The notes under the pieces were generated by a model. The model ran no database searches. It was not told where the DNA came from and saw only the letters and a program-made list of their open reading frames with translations. 64,000 nucleotides of DNA from the NCBI RefSeq assembly GCF_014698755.1, contig NZ_JACJTO010000020.1, positions 1 to 64,000 on the forward strand, given 5' to 3'. The stretch comes from Aphanizomenon flos-aquae FACHB-1287. Its GTDB lineage: Bacteria > Cyanobacteriota > Cyanobacteriia > Cyanobacteriales > Nostocaceae. Numbering within the stretch: position 1 is the first letter of the stretch; the number at the start of each line of letters is the position of its first letter. Shown one piece after another: positions 52,402 to 64,000 of the stretch. Made by a program: the position numbers and the translations under genes.

Positions 52402-52833
52402 GCGATCGCTGTTTGGGAGTTGAGGGGGTGCGATCTCTGTTTGGGGAAGTTGAGGGAGTGCGATCGCTGTTTGGGAAGTGGAGGGAGTGCGATCGCTGTT
52501 TGGGGGGTTGGAGGGGTGCGATCGCTTTTGGGAGGTTGAGGGAGTGCGATCGCTGTTTGGGGAGTTGAGGGGATGCGATGGCTATTTGGGAAGTTGGAGG
52601 GATGCGATCGCTATTTGGAAAGTTGAGGGGATGCGATCGCTGTTTGGGAAGTTGGAGGGATGCGATCGCTATTTGGGAAGTTGAAGGGATGCGATCGCTG
52701 TTTGGGAAGTTGAGGGGATGCGATCGCTATTTGGGAGGTTGAGGGGGTGCGATCGCTCTTTGGGGAGTTGAGGGGGTGCGATCGCTGTTTGGGGAGTTGA
52801 AGGGTGCGATAGCGAAGCGCGACCTAGGAATCG
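52402..52833. repeat. HIP1-centred 29-bp tandem array
   Basis: Fourteen units, each GCGATCGC plus a spacer of the type TGTTTGGGAAGTTGAGGGGAT. The octamers start at 52402, 52430, 52460, 52489, 52518, 52546, 52575, 52604, 52633, 52662, 52691, 52720, 52749 and 52778; the period is 29 bp with a few 28 or 30. The octamers at 52430 and 52575 carry one substitution. A fifteenth octamer at 52805 is split by a 21-nt insert. Readings across the array are not genes. Confidence 0.95.
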
Positions 52834-52851
52834 CATAGCTGATGACTATAG

Positions 52852-53172
52852 CTATTCTTCTTCTGCTAAAATCTGTGAAATATCCCGTGCAGAATGAATT
52901 AACCGAACAATTTCAATATACTCATCCCCTTCTAAATAAAAAATTAGATGCTTTTCAAATCCTCTAACTCCCCACTTCCGCAAACCAACTAAACGCGGAT
53001 TTTTAACATTATAAACACTACCAATACCAGGTAGTCGTGCTAATTGTGAAAAAGTCTGCCTCGTAGCATCAAAAAAACTCAATGCTGCATCAAAATTACT
53101 GTCAGCAATATAAGCAAACTGTTCATCAAGGTCAACACTAGCCTTTGGTCTAATTACAATTCGTCTAGTCAT
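52852..53172 (-). CDS. parE: ParE/RelE-superfamily toxin
   Basis: A 106-residue ParE-type toxin. It begins MTRRIVIRPKASVDLDEQFAYIADSN and has the helical hairpin LSFFDATRQTFSQLARLPGIGS, then the core sheet LRKWGVRGFEKHLIFYLEGD and IEIVRLIHSARDI. The HSARDI ending is the ParE signature. It lies 5 bp downstream of the antitoxin gene. The frame is open to 53226, but the ATG at 53172 gives the family N-terminus. ParE-type toxins act on DNA gyrase. The stop codon lies about 20 bp from the end of the 29-bp array. Confidence 0.9.
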   Translation of the reverse strand: MTRRIVIRPKASVDLDEQFAYIADSNFDAALSFFDATRQTFSQLARLPGIGSVYNVKNPRLVGLRKWGVRGFEKHLIFYLEGDEYIEIVRLIHSARDISQILAEEE

Positions 53173-53177
53173 TGCTA

Positions 53178-53426
53178 TTACTTGCGGAGTCTCTCTAGAA
53201 GCTGAGTGCGTTTTTGTTGCCACCACTCATCCGTAATTTCAATCGCTTCACCACTATCTAAGCCTTCTAATAGCAATGTTTCTATTCGGGATTGTGCCAC
53301 TTTTTCTAAATCTTGACGAATCAAATGTCGAATATATTCGCTTGTGGTACTGTAGCCACATTTTGCAACCTGTTCATTGATAAAGTCCCGCATGGAATCG
53401 GGAAGAGAAATATTTACTGTAGTCAT
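53178..53426 (-). CDS. parD: ParD-type ribbon-helix-helix antitoxin
   Basis: An 82-residue antitoxin. MTTVNISLPDSMRDFINEQVAKCGYSTTSEYIRHLIRQD is the DNA-binding ribbon-helix-helix; a disordered tail (GEAIEITDEWWQQKRTQLLERLRK) would wrap around ParE. It is first in the parDE operon and should repress it. Both genes are complete and of normal length. Confidence 0.9.
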   Translation of the reverse strand: MTTVNISLPDSMRDFINEQVAKCGYSTTSEYIRHLIRQDLEKVAQSRIETLLLEGLDSGEAIEITDEWWQQKRTQLLERLRK

Positions 53427-53509
53427 AGCTAATAAGTCTTTATATTTCTGATTCTTTAATTATGGCAAATATTGTCAATTTTTGTCAAATGTTTTGTAGG
53501 GATGTGGGT

Positions 53510-53857
53510 GCGTAAGCGTTGCGCTGCTGCAAGCAGTTCTCTGTTTGGGAAGTTGAGGGGATGCGATAGCGAAGCGCTGCTGCAAGCAGTTCGCTATTTG
53601 GGAGGTTGGGGGAGTGCGATAGCGTTGCGCTGCTGCAAGCAGTTCGCTGTTTGGGGGGTTGGGGGAGTGCGATAGCGAAGCGCTGCTGCAAGCAGTTCGC
53701 TGTTTGGGAAGTTAGAGGGAGTGCGATAGCGTTGCGCTGCTGCAAGCAGTTCGCTGTTTGGGAAGTTGGAGGAAGTGCGATAGCGAAGCGCTGCTGCAAG
53801 CAGTTCGCTTTTGGGAAGTTGAGGGAGTGCGATAGCGAAGCGCGACCTAGGAATCGC
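53510..53857. repeat. 53-bp tandem array: HIP1 spacer units filled with a 24-nt SDR5-like element
   Basis: Starts at 53510, 53563, 53616, 53669, 53723, 53777 and 53829; the period is 53-54 bp. Each unit has the same spacer as the 29-bp array, but the octamer is opened as GCGAT + 24 nt + CGC. The 24 nt begin AGCG(AA or TT)GCGCTG and end CTGCAAGCAGTT. The last unit (53829-53857) has a 21-nt insert of the AGCGAAGCGCGACCTAGG type instead. Only the first unit has a damaged octamer. Confidence 0.95.
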
Positions 53858-53865
53858 TATAACAT

Positions 53866-54207
53866 TTAAGCAGTAGCGAATGCAGTATATTTCCTTTCTT
53901 CAGGAGGATGAAAAGCTAAGACAATATCAAGATTAGAAATACCTAACTTCATTAATTCATTAGCTATTCCTTCCTCAGTCCAATCTTCTTCAATCCAAAT
54001 TTTATCATTTTTAATTCTGATATTAACTTGGATATTATTTGTTCTTTTTTTGCCATACCAACCCAAAAACCCCCAAATATAGTGATGATGATTATCATCA
54101 AAAATCAAACAACTTTCATCAGTTAAATTTGCCGCACCAGAAACCCAATTATGATATTCTGTGAGAACTTGTTTAATTGCTATTTGATATTGCTCTAGTT
54201 TATCCAT
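53866..54207 (-). CDS. xisI: XisI-family protein
   Basis: A 113-residue XisI (fdxN-element excision controlling factor) protein. It starts MDKLEQYQIAIKQVLTEYHNW and has the family pattern DDNHHHYIWGFLGWYGKKR, VNIRIKNDKIWIEEDWTEEGIANELMKLGI, DIVLAFHPPEERKYTAFA. It overlaps xisH by 13 bp. XisH and XisI are needed for excision of the fdxN element in Anabaena but occur in many copies away from any such element, so a TA-like or other paired role is likely. This gene is intact while its partner is broken. The stop is 9 bp from the repeat array. Confidence 0.9.
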   Translation of the reverse strand: MDKLEQYQIAIKQVLTEYHNWVSGAANLTDESCLIFDDNHHHYIWGFLGWYGKKRTNNIQVNIRIKNDKIWIEEDWTEEGIANELMKLGISNLDIVLAFHPPEERKYTAFATA

Positions 54208-54611
54208 TGTAATATCTCCTCCTTTTCGACATTAACTACAATCATCAAAATTTGATTTAATTCGACAATCTCTTTGATTGAATCTCTAGTAAAAAAGTTT
54301 TCGTATGTACTTTCTTTAATAGCCAAATAAATTATATATTCTGGTTCTGTGAGGTTAATTAAATTACGATATAAAATATATTGCCCTAAAGCTAGTTCAA
54401 AATCTCTCATGGGAGAAGGACTAAGAAAACTCTTGATTTCAACAACTATTTTTCGTCCATTTTGTTCTGCTGCAATCGGTTTTTCTGCGGATAAATCGGC
54501 AAATTATTCAGCATCTTTATATTTAATTTTATACGGATCAGCCGTAATTGTCCAACCATCGTTAATTAAAGCGTTTTTAACAGCATCGTGGTAAATATCT
54601 TTTGCTGGCAT
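54195..54611 (-). pseudogene. xisH: XisH-family gene with an in-frame stop at codon 36
   Basis: MPAKDIYHDAVKNALINDGW...KYKDAE, then TAA at 54506-54504, then FADLSAEKPIAAEQ, KIVVEIKSFLSPSPM and FELALGQYILYRNLI to the stop at 54195. Both parts are in one frame, so a single nonsense codon interrupts a gene of exactly the usual 138 codons. The TAA falls right before FADL, where the family normally has a hydrophobic or aromatic residue and the acidic residue of a PD-(D/E)xK-like site follows. Restart at the ATG at 54410 would give only the last 71 residues. Confidence 0.85.
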
Positions 54612-54671
54612 TGTTTTCTTGATAATATTTAGTAAACACGAATTAATCTTAACAGTACAATTATATCCACA

Positions 54672-54730
54672 AGTGTTGAATGTTAAGATTTTGAGGATTG
54701 TGTCCAAGTTGTGCATTGGTATTGGTGATA
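54672..54730. repeat. 59-bp dispersed repeat upstream of xisH
   Basis: The second copy of the sequence found next to ureD (48 of 59 positions identical, no gaps). It lies 61 bp upstream of the xisH start. Confidence 0.65.
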
Positions 54731-54851
54731 CCAAATTTGGTCAATTAATGACTCTATTCTCAATAGACAATGGATTTTACCTGGGTAAAACGCAAAGATT
54801 GTAAAGTTTTATTGCAGGATTCAACACTTGTGAATTATATCATATACTCAG

Positions 54852-54931
54852 GCGTTAGCGTAGCTCACTAAAGGAATCGCTGTTTGGGAGTTGAAGGGTG
54901 CGATAGCGAAGCGCTGCTGCAAGCAGTTCGC
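54852..54931. repeat. two HIP1 octamers, one with a 21-nt and one with a 24-nt insert
   Basis: 54852-54880 is an octamer (GCGTT...CGC) split by 21 nt; 54900-54931 is GCGAT, the 24-nt SDR5-like insert, CGC. The spacer between is again the TGTTTGGGAGTTGAAGGG phrase. Confidence 0.85.
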
Positions 54932-54936
54932 TCAAG

Positions 54937-55296
54937 TTAAACCCCAAAACCCAAAACCACATCCAAAGCAGTACGAATTTCTTCCCAATATTCAACTTCT
55001 AAAATCCCCACCAACCCTAAAACCCGACGATAATCAACAGAACGAATTTGAGCAACATCAATAAAACGATCTTCATCTAATCCATTAGTTGCTGTTGCTT
55101 TGATATTGACAATATAGGGAGCTTGCTTACTTCCTGGTCGAAATGGCATCACAATTGTTAATAATCCATATTGATTCATAATATCATTTTGAACTATCAA
55201 ACAAGCACGGATTTTTTGTGCTTCTGCTCCCACCGTTGGATCAAGATTTACCCAGCGAATTTCACCCCGTTTATAAGTTAAATTACCCTCTGGCAT
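54937..55296 (-). CDS. MazF/PemK-type mRNA interferase toxin
   Basis: A 119-residue PemK/MazF-family toxin. TYKRGEIRWVNLDPTVGAEAQKIRACLIVQND carries the RGEIxWVxxDPxxGxE signature, then LLTIVMPFRPGSKQAP, and FIDVAQIRSVDYRRVL with the conserved Gln-Ile-Arg. It cleaves mRNA at short sites. It overlaps the antitoxin gene by about 14 bp. The frame is open three codons further to 55305. The stop is 6 bp from the HIP1/SDR repeat. Confidence 0.92.
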   Translation of the reverse strand: MPEGNLTYKRGEIRWVNLDPTVGAEAQKIRACLIVQNDIMNQYGLLTIVMPFRPGSKQAPYIVNIKATATNGLDEDRFIDVAQIRSVDYRRVLGLVGILEVEYWEEIRTALDVVLGFGV

Positions 55297-55513
55297 TAAT
55301 ACCATCTCCAGCTACATTATCCCAATCAGAAATCTCATTTTGATATTCTAAATCTTTGGCATCTTCTTGGAGAGCAGCTATTATTTCTGCTTCTAAAATT
55401 TTGCGTCTTTGTTCTGCTAATAGTGCATTGATATAGCCACTACGATTACCTTTTGCTTGTTGATCAATAAATCTGAGAATGTCTTCTTCTAAAGTAATTG
55501 TGACTTTCATCAT
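55283..55513 (-). CDS. antitoxin of the MazF-like pair
   Basis: A 76-residue protein starting MMKVTITLEEDILRFIDQQAKGNRSGYINALLAEQRRK, a short ribbon-helix-helix-type segment, then an acidic tail (ALQEDAKDLEYQNEISDWDNV). It precedes the MazF-like toxin and overlaps it. The ribbon-helix-helix form of MazE-like antitoxin is common in cyanobacteria. Met residues six and seven codons into a longer frame (to 55531) are the likely starts. Confidence 0.82.
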   Translation of the reverse strand: MMKVTITLEEDILRFIDQQAKGNRSGYINALLAEQRRKILEAEIIAALQEDAKDLEYQNEISDWDNVAGDGINARG

Positions 55514-55594
55514 TATGTATGACTCATTCATCTTACCAATTAATCATACCACTTTTTTGACATTGCGTGAGGTAAAAAGAGATTTTGAGGGGTT

Positions 55595-55734
55595 GAGATC
55601 GCTGTTTGGGAGTTGAAGGGGTGCGATAGCGAAGCGCTGCTGTAAGCAGTTCGCTTTTGGGGAAGTTGAGGGGGTGCAATCGCTTTTGGGGGAAGTTGAA
55701 GGGGTGCGATCGCGTAGCTTACCGTAGGTATCGC
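55595..55734. repeat. short HIP1 array with mixed inserts
   Basis: Four units: a degenerate octamer at 55595-55602, a 24-nt-filled octamer at 55623-55654, a degenerate octamer GCAATCGC at 55676-55683 and a 21-nt-filled one at 55706-55734. The spacers are the usual TTTGGGGAAGTTGAGGGGGT type. Confidence 0.85.
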
Positions 55735-57686: not shown

Positions 57687-57777
57687 GCGATCGCTGTTTG
57701 GGGGGTTAAAGGGAGTGCGATAGCGAAGCGCGACCTAGGAATAGCTGTTTAGGGATTTGAAAGGATGCGATAGCGAA
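57687..57777. repeat. HIP1 array with one intact and two altered octamers
   Basis: Intact GCGATCGC at 57687-57694; an octamer at 57717-57745 split by the 21-nt GACCTAGG-type insert, with its last triplet changed; and a partial one at 57767, directly before the hicA stop. Confidence 0.75.
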
Positions 57778-57778
57778 A

Positions 57779-57988
57779 TTAATCTAAATCTTCCTCAGTC
57801 AAACCAGCATCTTTCAAAATACTTCTGAGTGTACCAGTAGGTAAATCACGATTACCATGAACAGGTATAGAAAGAATCACACTCATACCTTCCTTAACAT
57901 AGATATGATGACTACCTGTAATCCTTTTTAGATTCCATCCATAGCGTTCAACAATCTTACAAAGAAATTTACCAGAAACCGATTTCAT
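57779..57988 (-). CDS. hicA: HicA-family toxin (second HicBA module)
   Basis: A 69-residue HicA. MKSVSGKFLCKIVERYGWNLKRITGSHHIYVKEG with the active-site His in GSHH, then ILSIPVHGNRDLPTGTLRSILKDAGLTEEDL. It overlaps the antitoxin gene by 4 bp. It shares little identity with the HicA at 4.35 kb, so the modules are not a recent duplication. The stop codon abuts the repeat array. Confidence 0.9.
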   Translation of the reverse strand: MKSVSGKFLCKIVERYGWNLKRITGSHHIYVKEGMSVILSIPVHGNRDLPTGTLRSILKDAGLTEEDLD

Positions 57989-58191
57989 AAAGATAACTCA
58001 ATTAACTGTTTTTCTGGCTCAATTTCTTCTTGCTGACTAGCAACTTCTAACCAACCTTGAACAGCATCTTTCAACATTTCTAATAAATGTTCATAACTTT
58101 CACCCCAGGTATGACATCCTGGTAAAGCTGGTACAGAACCACACCAGACACCGTCTTCTTCCCAAATAATTGCTTTTATTTTCATAGCCAA
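57985..58191 (-). CDS. hicB: HicB-family antitoxin (second HicBA module)
   Basis: A 68-residue HicB of the short type: MKIKAIIWEEDGVWCGSVPALPGCHTWGESYEHLLEMLKDAVQGWLEV. The PALPGCHTWG segment is the family hallmark. It is first in the operon and should neutralise HicA. No DNA-binding domain is attached. Confidence 0.9.
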   Translation of the reverse strand: MAMKIKAIIWEEDGVWCGSVPALPGCHTWGESYEHLLEMLKDAVQGWLEVASQQEEIEPEKQLIELSL

Positions 58192-58290
58192 TTCCTTGAA
58201 CTAAGGATATTTTACCGCAGAGGCAGTCAGATGTACCAGTTTAATAAAGATGAATAATCGCTTTTGGGGAGGTTGGGGAGGTTGAGGAGT

Positions 58291-58350
58291 GCGATAGCGA
58301 AGCGCTGCTGCAAGCAGTTCGCTATTTGGGAGGTTGAAGGGTGCGATCGC
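58291..58350. repeat. HIP1 unit with SDR5-like insert followed by an intact unit
   Basis: 58291-58322 is GCGAT, 24 nt, CGC; the usual spacer follows; 58343-58350 is an intact GCGATCGC. Confidence 0.9.
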
Positions 58351-58385
58351 TCCACTATTGCTCAAAAACTTAAATTTTGTACAAT

Positions 58386-58414
58386 TTGCAAAAAACAGAC
58401 AAATAATCTATAAT
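58386..58414 (+). promoter_or_regulatory. sigma-70-type promoter of the phd-relE pair
   Basis: TTGCAA (58386-58391), 17-bp spacer, TATAAT (58409-58414), 32 bp before the antitoxin ATG. Confidence 0.7.
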
Positions 58415-58446
58415 GTTATGTAACCCTATAAATTTTGTGAGACGCT

Positions 58447-58698
58447 ATGTCTGTCATCAGTGCAAGTGAAGCGCGTGCTAATTTTCCCGATATTATGAAC
58501 CGTGCAGAATATCGTGGAGAAAGAATTTTAATTCAGCGTCATGGTAAAGCTGCGGTAGCGATAATTAGCATTGAAGATTTAAAACTATTAGAAGCAATGG
58601 AAGATGCAATTGATTCTGCTAAATTGAGACGTGCAATTGAAGAAAATGAAGGATTTACCACCATAGAAGAAATCATCGCCAAATATCCCAATGAGTGA
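58447..58698 (+). CDS. Phd/YefM-family antitoxin
   Basis: An 83-residue antitoxin. MSVISASEARANFPDIMNRAEYRGERILIQRHGKAAVAIISIEDLKLLEAME is the Phd/YefM fold, followed by the toxin-binding helix (KLRRAIEENEGFTTIEEIIAKY). It overlaps the RelE-like gene by 8 bp. It should bind its own promoter, which lies just upstream. Confidence 0.92.
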   Translation: MSVISASEARANFPDIMNRAEYRGERILIQRHGKAAVAIISIEDLKLLEAMEDAIDSAKLRRAIEENEGFTTIEEIIAKYPNE

Positions 58699-58951
58699 AC
58701 GTTATACATTGAGGATTGCTAGAACTGCGGAAAAAGACTTATTAGACTTACAACCAAAACAATATAAACAAGTTGTATCAAAAATACTCTCACTTCAAGG
58801 TAATCCTCGTCCTCAAGACTATGCAGCTTTAAAAGGTTATCAAGGTGGTTATCGTATTGATCAGGGTGAATACAGAATTTTGTACACCATTGATGATGAT
58901 AATAAATTAGTTGCTGTTTTTCGGGTTGGTAAACGTAATAGCGCGGCCTAG
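58691..58951 (+). CDS. RelE/ParE-type toxin with repeat-derived C-terminus
   Basis: An 86-residue RelE-type toxin. YTLRIARTAEKDLLDLQPKQYKQVVSKILSLQGNPRP, then YRIDQGEYRILYTIDDDNKLVAVFRVGKRN are family-typical. The usual ending after VGKR(N/R) is a short Asp/Tyr-containing tail with a catalytic Tyr or Arg. Here the frame runs into a HIP1-embedded repeat (GCGCGGCCTAGGAATCGC) and stops after NSAA. The toxin may therefore lack a residue needed for activity, which would let it persist without harm. Confidence 0.87.
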   Translation: MSERYTLRIARTAEKDLLDLQPKQYKQVVSKILSLQGNPRPQDYAALKGYQGGYRIDQGEYRILYTIDDDNKLVAVFRVGKRNSAA

Positions 58952-63621: not shown

Positions 63622-64000
63622 TTACTGATAGCTATTACAAGTAGCTATATCTAATTTTCTCAAAGGAATTAAACCTGTTTCCGATAGTAAACATTGAACT
63701 TGAGTAGTTTTCAAAATCTCCGCAAATTTTTCTCCAATTGGCTCTTGACGATTATCTCTTAGATAAATCACAGATAGAGGGTAAGCTAGAGGATAGCGTT
63801 GGCTGGTAAACGCCGTTATATTAGGAGCGTAATTTCCCTTATCATTACATAAATCTATTTGTTGAGGGGTTACAGGTTTACCATCTTTTTGAATTAGAGG
63901 AGAAACTGGATCATTATTATTGTCAAATAAGGCTAAGGGATAGACTGAACATTCACCATAAACCTTGCTCAAAGAGTCAAACCCAATACTCCCAATGGGG
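63622..64000 (-). CDS. PstS-like phosphate-binding protein, C-terminal part (runs off the window)
   Basis: The reading is open to the right edge of the window, so this is the end of a longer gene that starts beyond 64000. GSIGFDSLSKVYG, YPLAYPLSVIYLRD and FAEILKTTQVQCLLSETGLIPL are the C-terminal pattern of PstS-type periplasmic binding proteins (YPL/I...VY; TGLIPL). The Cys pair (VQCLLSET, IATCNS) is unusual. Promoter, signal peptide and N-terminal half cannot be seen. Confidence 0.7.
   Translation of the reverse strand, partial: PIGSIGFDSLSKVYGECSVYPLALFDNNNDPVSPLIQKDGKPVTPQQIDLCNDKGNYAPNITAFTSQRYPLAYPLSVIYLRDNRQEPIGEKFAEILKTTQVQCLLSETGLIPLRKLDIATCNSYQ

Follow-up and report, generated by a model that had tools for sequence, protein, structure and literature searches.

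A HIP1 minisatellite of Aphanizomenon flos-aquae whose octamers probably carry an SDR5-type 24-nt element

The small dispersed repeat (SDR) SDR5 of Nostoc punctiforme is said to have been described by Elhai et al. in 2008 as having a conserved secondary structure, and the same work reportedly places SDR families inside tandem repeats, namely heptameric ones. The locus considered here likewise has a tiny element embedded in tandem repeats; in contrast to the heptameric case, the unit is a 29-bp HIP1 repeat and the element lies within HIP1 itself. A passage of PMC4390886 describes SDR5 as inserted between nucleotides 3 and 4 of HIP1, and the present element matches that description in length (24 nt), HIP1 site and insertion point; a first-pass annotation of this DNA had already noted the fit in length and HIP1 site. 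The length is obtained by subtracting the octamer (8 nt) from a 32-nt loaded octamer in the array described below, as well as from empty and loaded alleles of a SpoU methyltransferase gene. The identification is a match by description to that passage, and the likeness extends to the many dispersed copies and, among the matches listed, to a limitation to cyanobacteria, the single non-cyanobacterial label being one bin labelled Rhizobium. The present case differs from SDR5 in that a tandem array has almost every octamer loaded and in that 21-nt relatives occupy the same octamers. REPIN/RAYT elements, as presented in parts of PMC3116915 and PMC6006769, are short repeats that also spread without a gene of their own, and Y1 transposase genes occur in all 16 genomes compared here; however, the target here is HIP1, the loaded octamers do not contain the GTAG/GTGG tag given in those parts, and there is no neighbouring Y1 (RAYT) protein among the ten scanned island proteins of the window. 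In the open-licence papers searched, only PMC4390886 treats SDR5 together with HIP1, a search for HIP1 with Anabaena and minisatellite gave no match, and none of the titles listed concerns loaded HIP1 arrays or array-bounded toxin-antitoxin blocks.

The window (the whole 64,000-nt stretch analysed) contains 26 copies of GCGATCGC, compared with 0.17 expected. No spacer accompanies the 11 exact HIP1 sites that lie up to 45.6 kb, and across the whole window the spacer units and inserts are confined to 52.4-58.4 kb on the + strand, with the exception of a loose insert-like match at 63791. Array 1 (52402..52834, +) is a 29-bp HIP1 minisatellite with 14 empty or near-empty octamers (12 exact and two with one mismatch), and its last octamer (52806-52834, +) is loaded with a 21-nt insert. 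Array 2 (53510..53857, +) is the same minisatellite with loaded octamers, which start at 53510, 53563, 53616, 53669, 53723, 53777 and 53829 (spacings 53, 53, 53, 54, 54 and 52); TRF gives periods of 29 and 53 for the two arrays. All inserts of array 2 are on the + strand. Octamer 1 (53510..53541) contains a 24-nt insert of TT type (GCGTA...TTCTC), octamers 2 (53563..53594), 4 (53669..53700) and 6 (53777..53808) a 24-nt insert of AA type, and octamers 3 (53616..53647) and 5 (53723..53754) a 24-nt hybrid (GCGAT...TT), while octamer 7 (53829..53857) contains a 21-nt insert of GAC type that has its 5' half in common with the 24-nt insert and is otherwise different. The first-pass annotation had placed a 24-nt element in every octamer of the 53-bp array, which is correct for six of the seven, and had assigned both arrays the same spacer sequence; the spacers do form one family, but with a mean pairwise difference of ~16% in each array. 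Further repeats on the + strand are a short stretch at 54852..54931 with one 24-nt loaded octamer (54900-54931), array 3 (55595..55713), in which one 24-nt loaded octamer (variant TGTAAG) lies amid degenerate and exact octamers, an empty HIP1 followed by a spacer and a 21-nt loaded octamer (57687..57745), and spacer units at 58259..58350 with an octamer carrying 24 nt (58291-58322) and a HIP1 without insert (58343-58350). Elsewhere in the same genome, another loaded tandem array (L062, G000:C36:12688-13004) has ~97-bp spacing and an unrelated spacer.

Between the repeats lie small gene blocks. Block A (52836..53505, -) contains genes for a ParE-type toxin and a ParD-like antitoxin (the ParD match is just under the Pfam cut-off), block B (53860..54845, -) a XisI gene and an interrupted XisH region, block C (54931..55584, -) a PemK/MazF-type toxin gene and its neighbour, block E (57763..58255, -) HicA/HicB genes, and block F (58355..58951, +) a small gene pair of which the second encodes a ParE-type toxin. 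DUF488 and dual-OB proteins are also encoded between the arrays.

With a rough probability of 0.6, the best explanation as a whole is that array 2, a HIP1 minisatellite of the same kind as array 1, has had its octamers loaded with an SDR5-type 24-nt element. The 24-nt and 21-nt elements, which have a common 5' half (ATAGCGAAGCGC), would be copied into HIP1 at the point between nucleotides 3 and 4; inside tandem arrays, they would spread and turn over through short-tract recombination between units and amplification of multi-unit blocks; and the arrays, which keep to one orientation, may help to reorder the toxin-antitoxin and XisHI blocks by homologous recombination with one another.

The window's own genome (G000) was compared with sister genomes (G001-G015), one per species and several of them drafts, so that array assembly may be imperfect; the same features are seen in part in G002, G004, G005 and G012, which consist of one or two contigs each. 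The 24-nt pattern AGCGNNGCGCTGCTGCAAGCAG has 21 copies in the own genome and 508 across the genus (16 of 16 genomes), with the highest number in G003 (97), and the reversed pattern, used as a control, has none. One pattern for the 21-nt relatives, which share the 5' half, gives 481 copies in the 16 genomes; among the matches listed, these are mostly of GAC and TCC types. None of 15 sampled genomes from other genera contains AGCGNNGCGCTGCTGCAAGCAG, a sample too narrow given the later scan of named genomes, in which the AA form is found in at least 116 stretches from at least 16 named cyanobacterial genera and some unassigned cyanobacteria. Phage records contain no match to the 45-nt loaded unit, and 14 of 72,556 plasmid records match, all of them cyanobacterial. 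In eight of these 14 (L256 and others) the best match lies under an annotated gene, and coding insertions may be common. Of 20 copies of the 24-nt element taken from G002, 11 (L066, L067, L069, L073-L078, L082 and L083) are flanked by one common sequence; it looks as though the element had been acquired by a larger dispersed repeat.

Of the 508 pattern copies, 371 keep both halves of the octamer intact, as do 16 of the 21 in the own genome, where the other five have a changed half. Among the imperfect copies (137 of 508), those of other genomes were inspected in small part only; among those inspected, L065 of G002 lacks a HIP1 half 5' of the insert. Copies outside HIP1, named beforehand as a refuting finding, are borne out only in part: residence in HIP1 is not exclusive, given L065, and the fact that only 371 of 508 copies have intact halves is a point against the explanation given above. 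In the matches listed from named genomes, the sequence 3' of the insert in the 156 copies with enough flank reads TTCGC in 105, ATCGC in 28 and otherwise in 23; ATCGC predominates in Plectonema, Rivularia, Anabaenopsis, Brasilonema and others, and TTCGC in Dolichospermum, Anabaena, Sphaerospermopsis and Cuspidothrix. The ATCGC copies and the SpoU allele of G002 fit insertion between HIP1 nucleotides 3 and 4 exactly. The TTCGC copies, including those in array 2, are ambiguous; the opening initially assigned to array 2 (GCGAT^CGC) fits, but GCG^ATCGC plus an A-to-T change fits equally. In the bloom-forming Dolichospermum clade the 3' base is T, whereas most copies from other genera have A; this base therefore travels with the element. 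Such a lineage-specific base shows that the copied tract extends into HIP1 and provides a handle on the mechanism.

The alternation of GAA and TTG variants between neighbouring units of array 2, which had been attributed to two-unit amplification or inversion of the insert, is real (TT at 53510, 53616 and 53723; AA at 53563, 53669 and 53777), but the TT units are not all alike: the sequence is GCGTAAGCGTT in unit 1 and GCGATAGCGTT in units 3 and 5. Across the 16 genomes, 27 of 29 TT-type copies read GCGTA...TT, and the other two are the hybrids in units 3 and 5 of array 2. Inversion as the source of the alternation is not supported and was rejected, since the rest of the element keeps the same orientation and TT is a separate sequence variant. 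The hybrid units are best read as one TT x AA recombinant that would have been copied locally. A hairpin had also been proposed for the insert. The CTGCT/AGCAG hairpin can form, but it is no stabler than dinucleotide shuffles (z-scores of -0.76 to 1.21 in 14 predictions, eight for RNA and six for DNA), and on these energies the idea of a stable hairpin was set aside.

Sister genomes show that the same octamer, set by its single-copy flanks, is empty, loaded with 24 nt or loaded with 21 nt. A search for empty octamers at orthologous loci, set as a test beforehand, found them beside single-copy DNA and inside the SpoU gene. To the left of block B, the octamer contains a 21-nt GAC insert in G000 and G005, a 21-nt TCC insert in G015 and no insert in G003, while to the right of block A it contains a 24-nt insert in G000 and G005, a 21-nt insert in G013, G008 and G010, and is empty in one G009 copy (other copies differ or are without the repeat). 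The site left of block C is loaded with 24 nt in G000, 21 nt in G008 and another insert in G012, and that left of block F is empty in G000, G005 and G008, with another insert in G012 and a 21-nt remnant in G013. Four isolated G002 copies were also searched for in relatives. Clean loaded and empty states were found for two of them, namely the SpoU site and a further copy whose octamer is loaded in G002 and G014 and has no insert in G011. The third site appears in relatives with a nested insert, as a variant, without an octamer or as an empty HIP1 in diverged sequence, and for the fourth, G005 was the one relative found loaded, with no clean empty ortholog among the relatives searched. In G004, the ortholog of the L080 copy (L104) has ~25-31 nt seemingly nested within the 24-nt element, a resemblance to the nested SDRs that Elhai et al. 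are said to have described in 2008.

The octamer of the SpoU gene was read in all 16 genomes: a 24-nt insert is present in three (G000, G002 and G015), a 21-nt insert in two (G012 and G013) and none in 11, of which six have exact HIP1 and five a degenerate octamer. The inserts have accumulated base changes (two or three in G000, one or two in G015, and others in G012 and G013), and 18 nt are missing just downstream of the site in G000. In the two proteins scanned, the substrate-binding domain lies on one side of the site and the SpoU domain on the other; the insert adds 8 or 7 residues there (L085-L100, L106), and the reading frame is open, at 260-268 aa, in the alleles inspected (two with 24 nt, one with 21 nt and one empty). 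On the best tree, four changes are required (three for 24 nt and one for 21 nt), and the strongly supported branches alone force two for the 24-nt group, with the caveats that G000 and G011 have long branches and that gene exchange is a possible alternative. One octamer in one gene with three allele types, together with arrays that preserve the state of every unit separately, amounts to a natural experiment. These alleles also bear on the proposal that the HIP1 halves are part of the element and that empty octamers are products of precise excision. Although in one clade the T beside the 3' half moves together with the element, and TA replaces AT on the 5' side in some copies, most SpoU alleles (11 of 16) are empty and these occupy several branches, and the empty alleles are either exact HIP1 or degenerate without an insert trace; precise excision is accordingly very improbable.

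Within the arrays, spacers and inserts bear on the mode of spread. An octamer might have been loaded once and the 53-bp unit, or a two-unit block, then multiplied, which would accommodate the 16-nt insert core that is identical in all six 24-nt units of array 2 (where the spacers differ by ~16%), the AA/TT alternation, in which the hybrid is limited to units 3 and 5, and the block amplification present in other arrays. However, the array-2 spacers differ as much from one another as from those of array 1 (mean distances of 3.33 edits within array 2, 3.46 between arrays and 3.42 within array 1; permutation p 0.37), and other inserts occupy octamer 1 in sister genomes. A two-unit block predicts that spacers 2/4 and 3/5 are alike, yet the closest pairs are 2/3 and 4/5. 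As the spacers do not separate the arrays while the core is identical, the evidence is against pure amplification, which is considered quite unlikely; to judge from its spacers, array 2 did not arise simply by multiplying a single loaded unit. Individual units give the same impression: octamer 12 of array 1 is empty and octamer 2 of array 2 is loaded, yet their spacers agree at 40 of 42 bases, and in two arrays of G003 identical spacers flank one empty and one loaded octamer. When 145 units were compared, 13 of 16 pairs with spacers within two edits on both sides had the same empty or loaded state and three differed, indicating that the empty or loaded state is for the most part passed on along with the unit. 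In nine mosaic arrays, two of 18 spacer tests gave p ~0.02 (a further point against the best explanation) and the others 0.22 or more. Local copying also took place, as indicated by the restriction of the hybrid to units 3 and 5, and arrays of G003 and G002 repeat whole multi-unit blocks, inserts included; five of the 16 genomes contain loaded units in tandem pairs. On the question of repeated insertion or amplification, signs of both are therefore present, the spacers speaking against multiplication of one unit and the hybrid and repeated blocks speaking for local copying.

Within arrays, insertion and short-tract conversion cannot be told apart. Conversion could even be the only process, the insert spreading just by short-tract homologous recombination among units with no separate insertion today. 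The hybrid insert, the homology supplied by shared spacers and the agreement in state among units with near-identical spacers (13 of 16) are in keeping with this. It does not account for isolated sites with unrelated flanks that are loaded or empty (the SpoU gene and one other), or for the 27-mer copies in at least 16 named cyanobacterial genera, whose flanks are unrelated, and conversion alone is unlikely. Loading by copying into HIP1, followed by recombination within arrays, remains the preferred reading.

These genomes bear on the way in which a gene-less 24-nt sequence moves. Elhai et al. reportedly put forward in 2008 the idea of an RNA intermediate for the repeats. The absence of an RVT_1 match in five of the 16 genomes (G003, which has the most copies, G000, G001, G002 and G011) bears on this idea, and RVT_1 counts do not follow copy numbers (Spearman 0.18, p 0.49 for 24 nt; 0.28, p 0.29 for 21 nt); a reverse transcriptase was rejected as present-day driver. 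Y1 counts correlate weakly with copies across the 16 genomes (0.53, p 0.035 for 24 nt; 0.61, p 0.011 for 21 nt; uncorrected and with relatedness ignored). Genome size correlates too (0.42, p 0.10 for 24 nt; 0.51, p 0.044 for 21 nt), and the Y1 correlation was not counted as evidence.

The order of the blocks along the repeat strand is A-B-C-D-E-F in the window. Five block queries gave 31 matches at 10 loci in eight sister genomes, the loci having been chosen for matching this region, and the orders there, in which other sequence may intervene, are A-E-B-C-E-F (G005), A-E-B-A (G015), A-F-C (G008), F-A (G013), E-B-A (G003) and C-B-E-F-C (G012). Seventeen of the 31 matches have all nearby repeats on their own strand, three have repeats on both strands, 11 have no repeat within 200 bp, and none is opposed to its nearby repeats. 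The block edge is where 22 of the 31 matches end on the left and 17 on the right; several of the junctions between blocks in sister genomes fall within genes rather than repeats, a point against the explanation favoured above. The reordering is read as probable homologous recombination between arrays plus other rearrangements.

Small toxin-antitoxin blocks, one-orientation repeats between them and an order that varies by species recall integron cassette arrays, and loaded octamers might be thought to serve the blocks as integron-like attachment sites. The separators here, however, are HIP1 minisatellites, and the blocks are bounded by empty arrays as well as loaded ones. No genome of the 16 exceeds the TIGR02249 integron-integrase cut-off (weak matches occur in eight, and the own genome has none), 14 control genomes also yielded none and so included no positive control, and no recombinase was found among the ten island proteins scanned. 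An integron is extremely improbable and was rejected. A broader view, which is put forward tentatively, is that HIP1 sites act as sockets into which interchangeable 21- and 24-nt elements may be copied at GCG^ATCGC, in-frame in at least one gene, and that runs of such sockets could be integrase-free recombination seams along which toxin-antitoxin and XisHI blocks are shuffled between genomes. Block E or F is present in 14 of the 16 genomes, and the two are neighbours as in the window in G005 and also, less than 1 kb apart, in G010 and G012. The XisH region of block B is interrupted (54195-54734), and homology to three sister copies of the block stops near 54436-54467.
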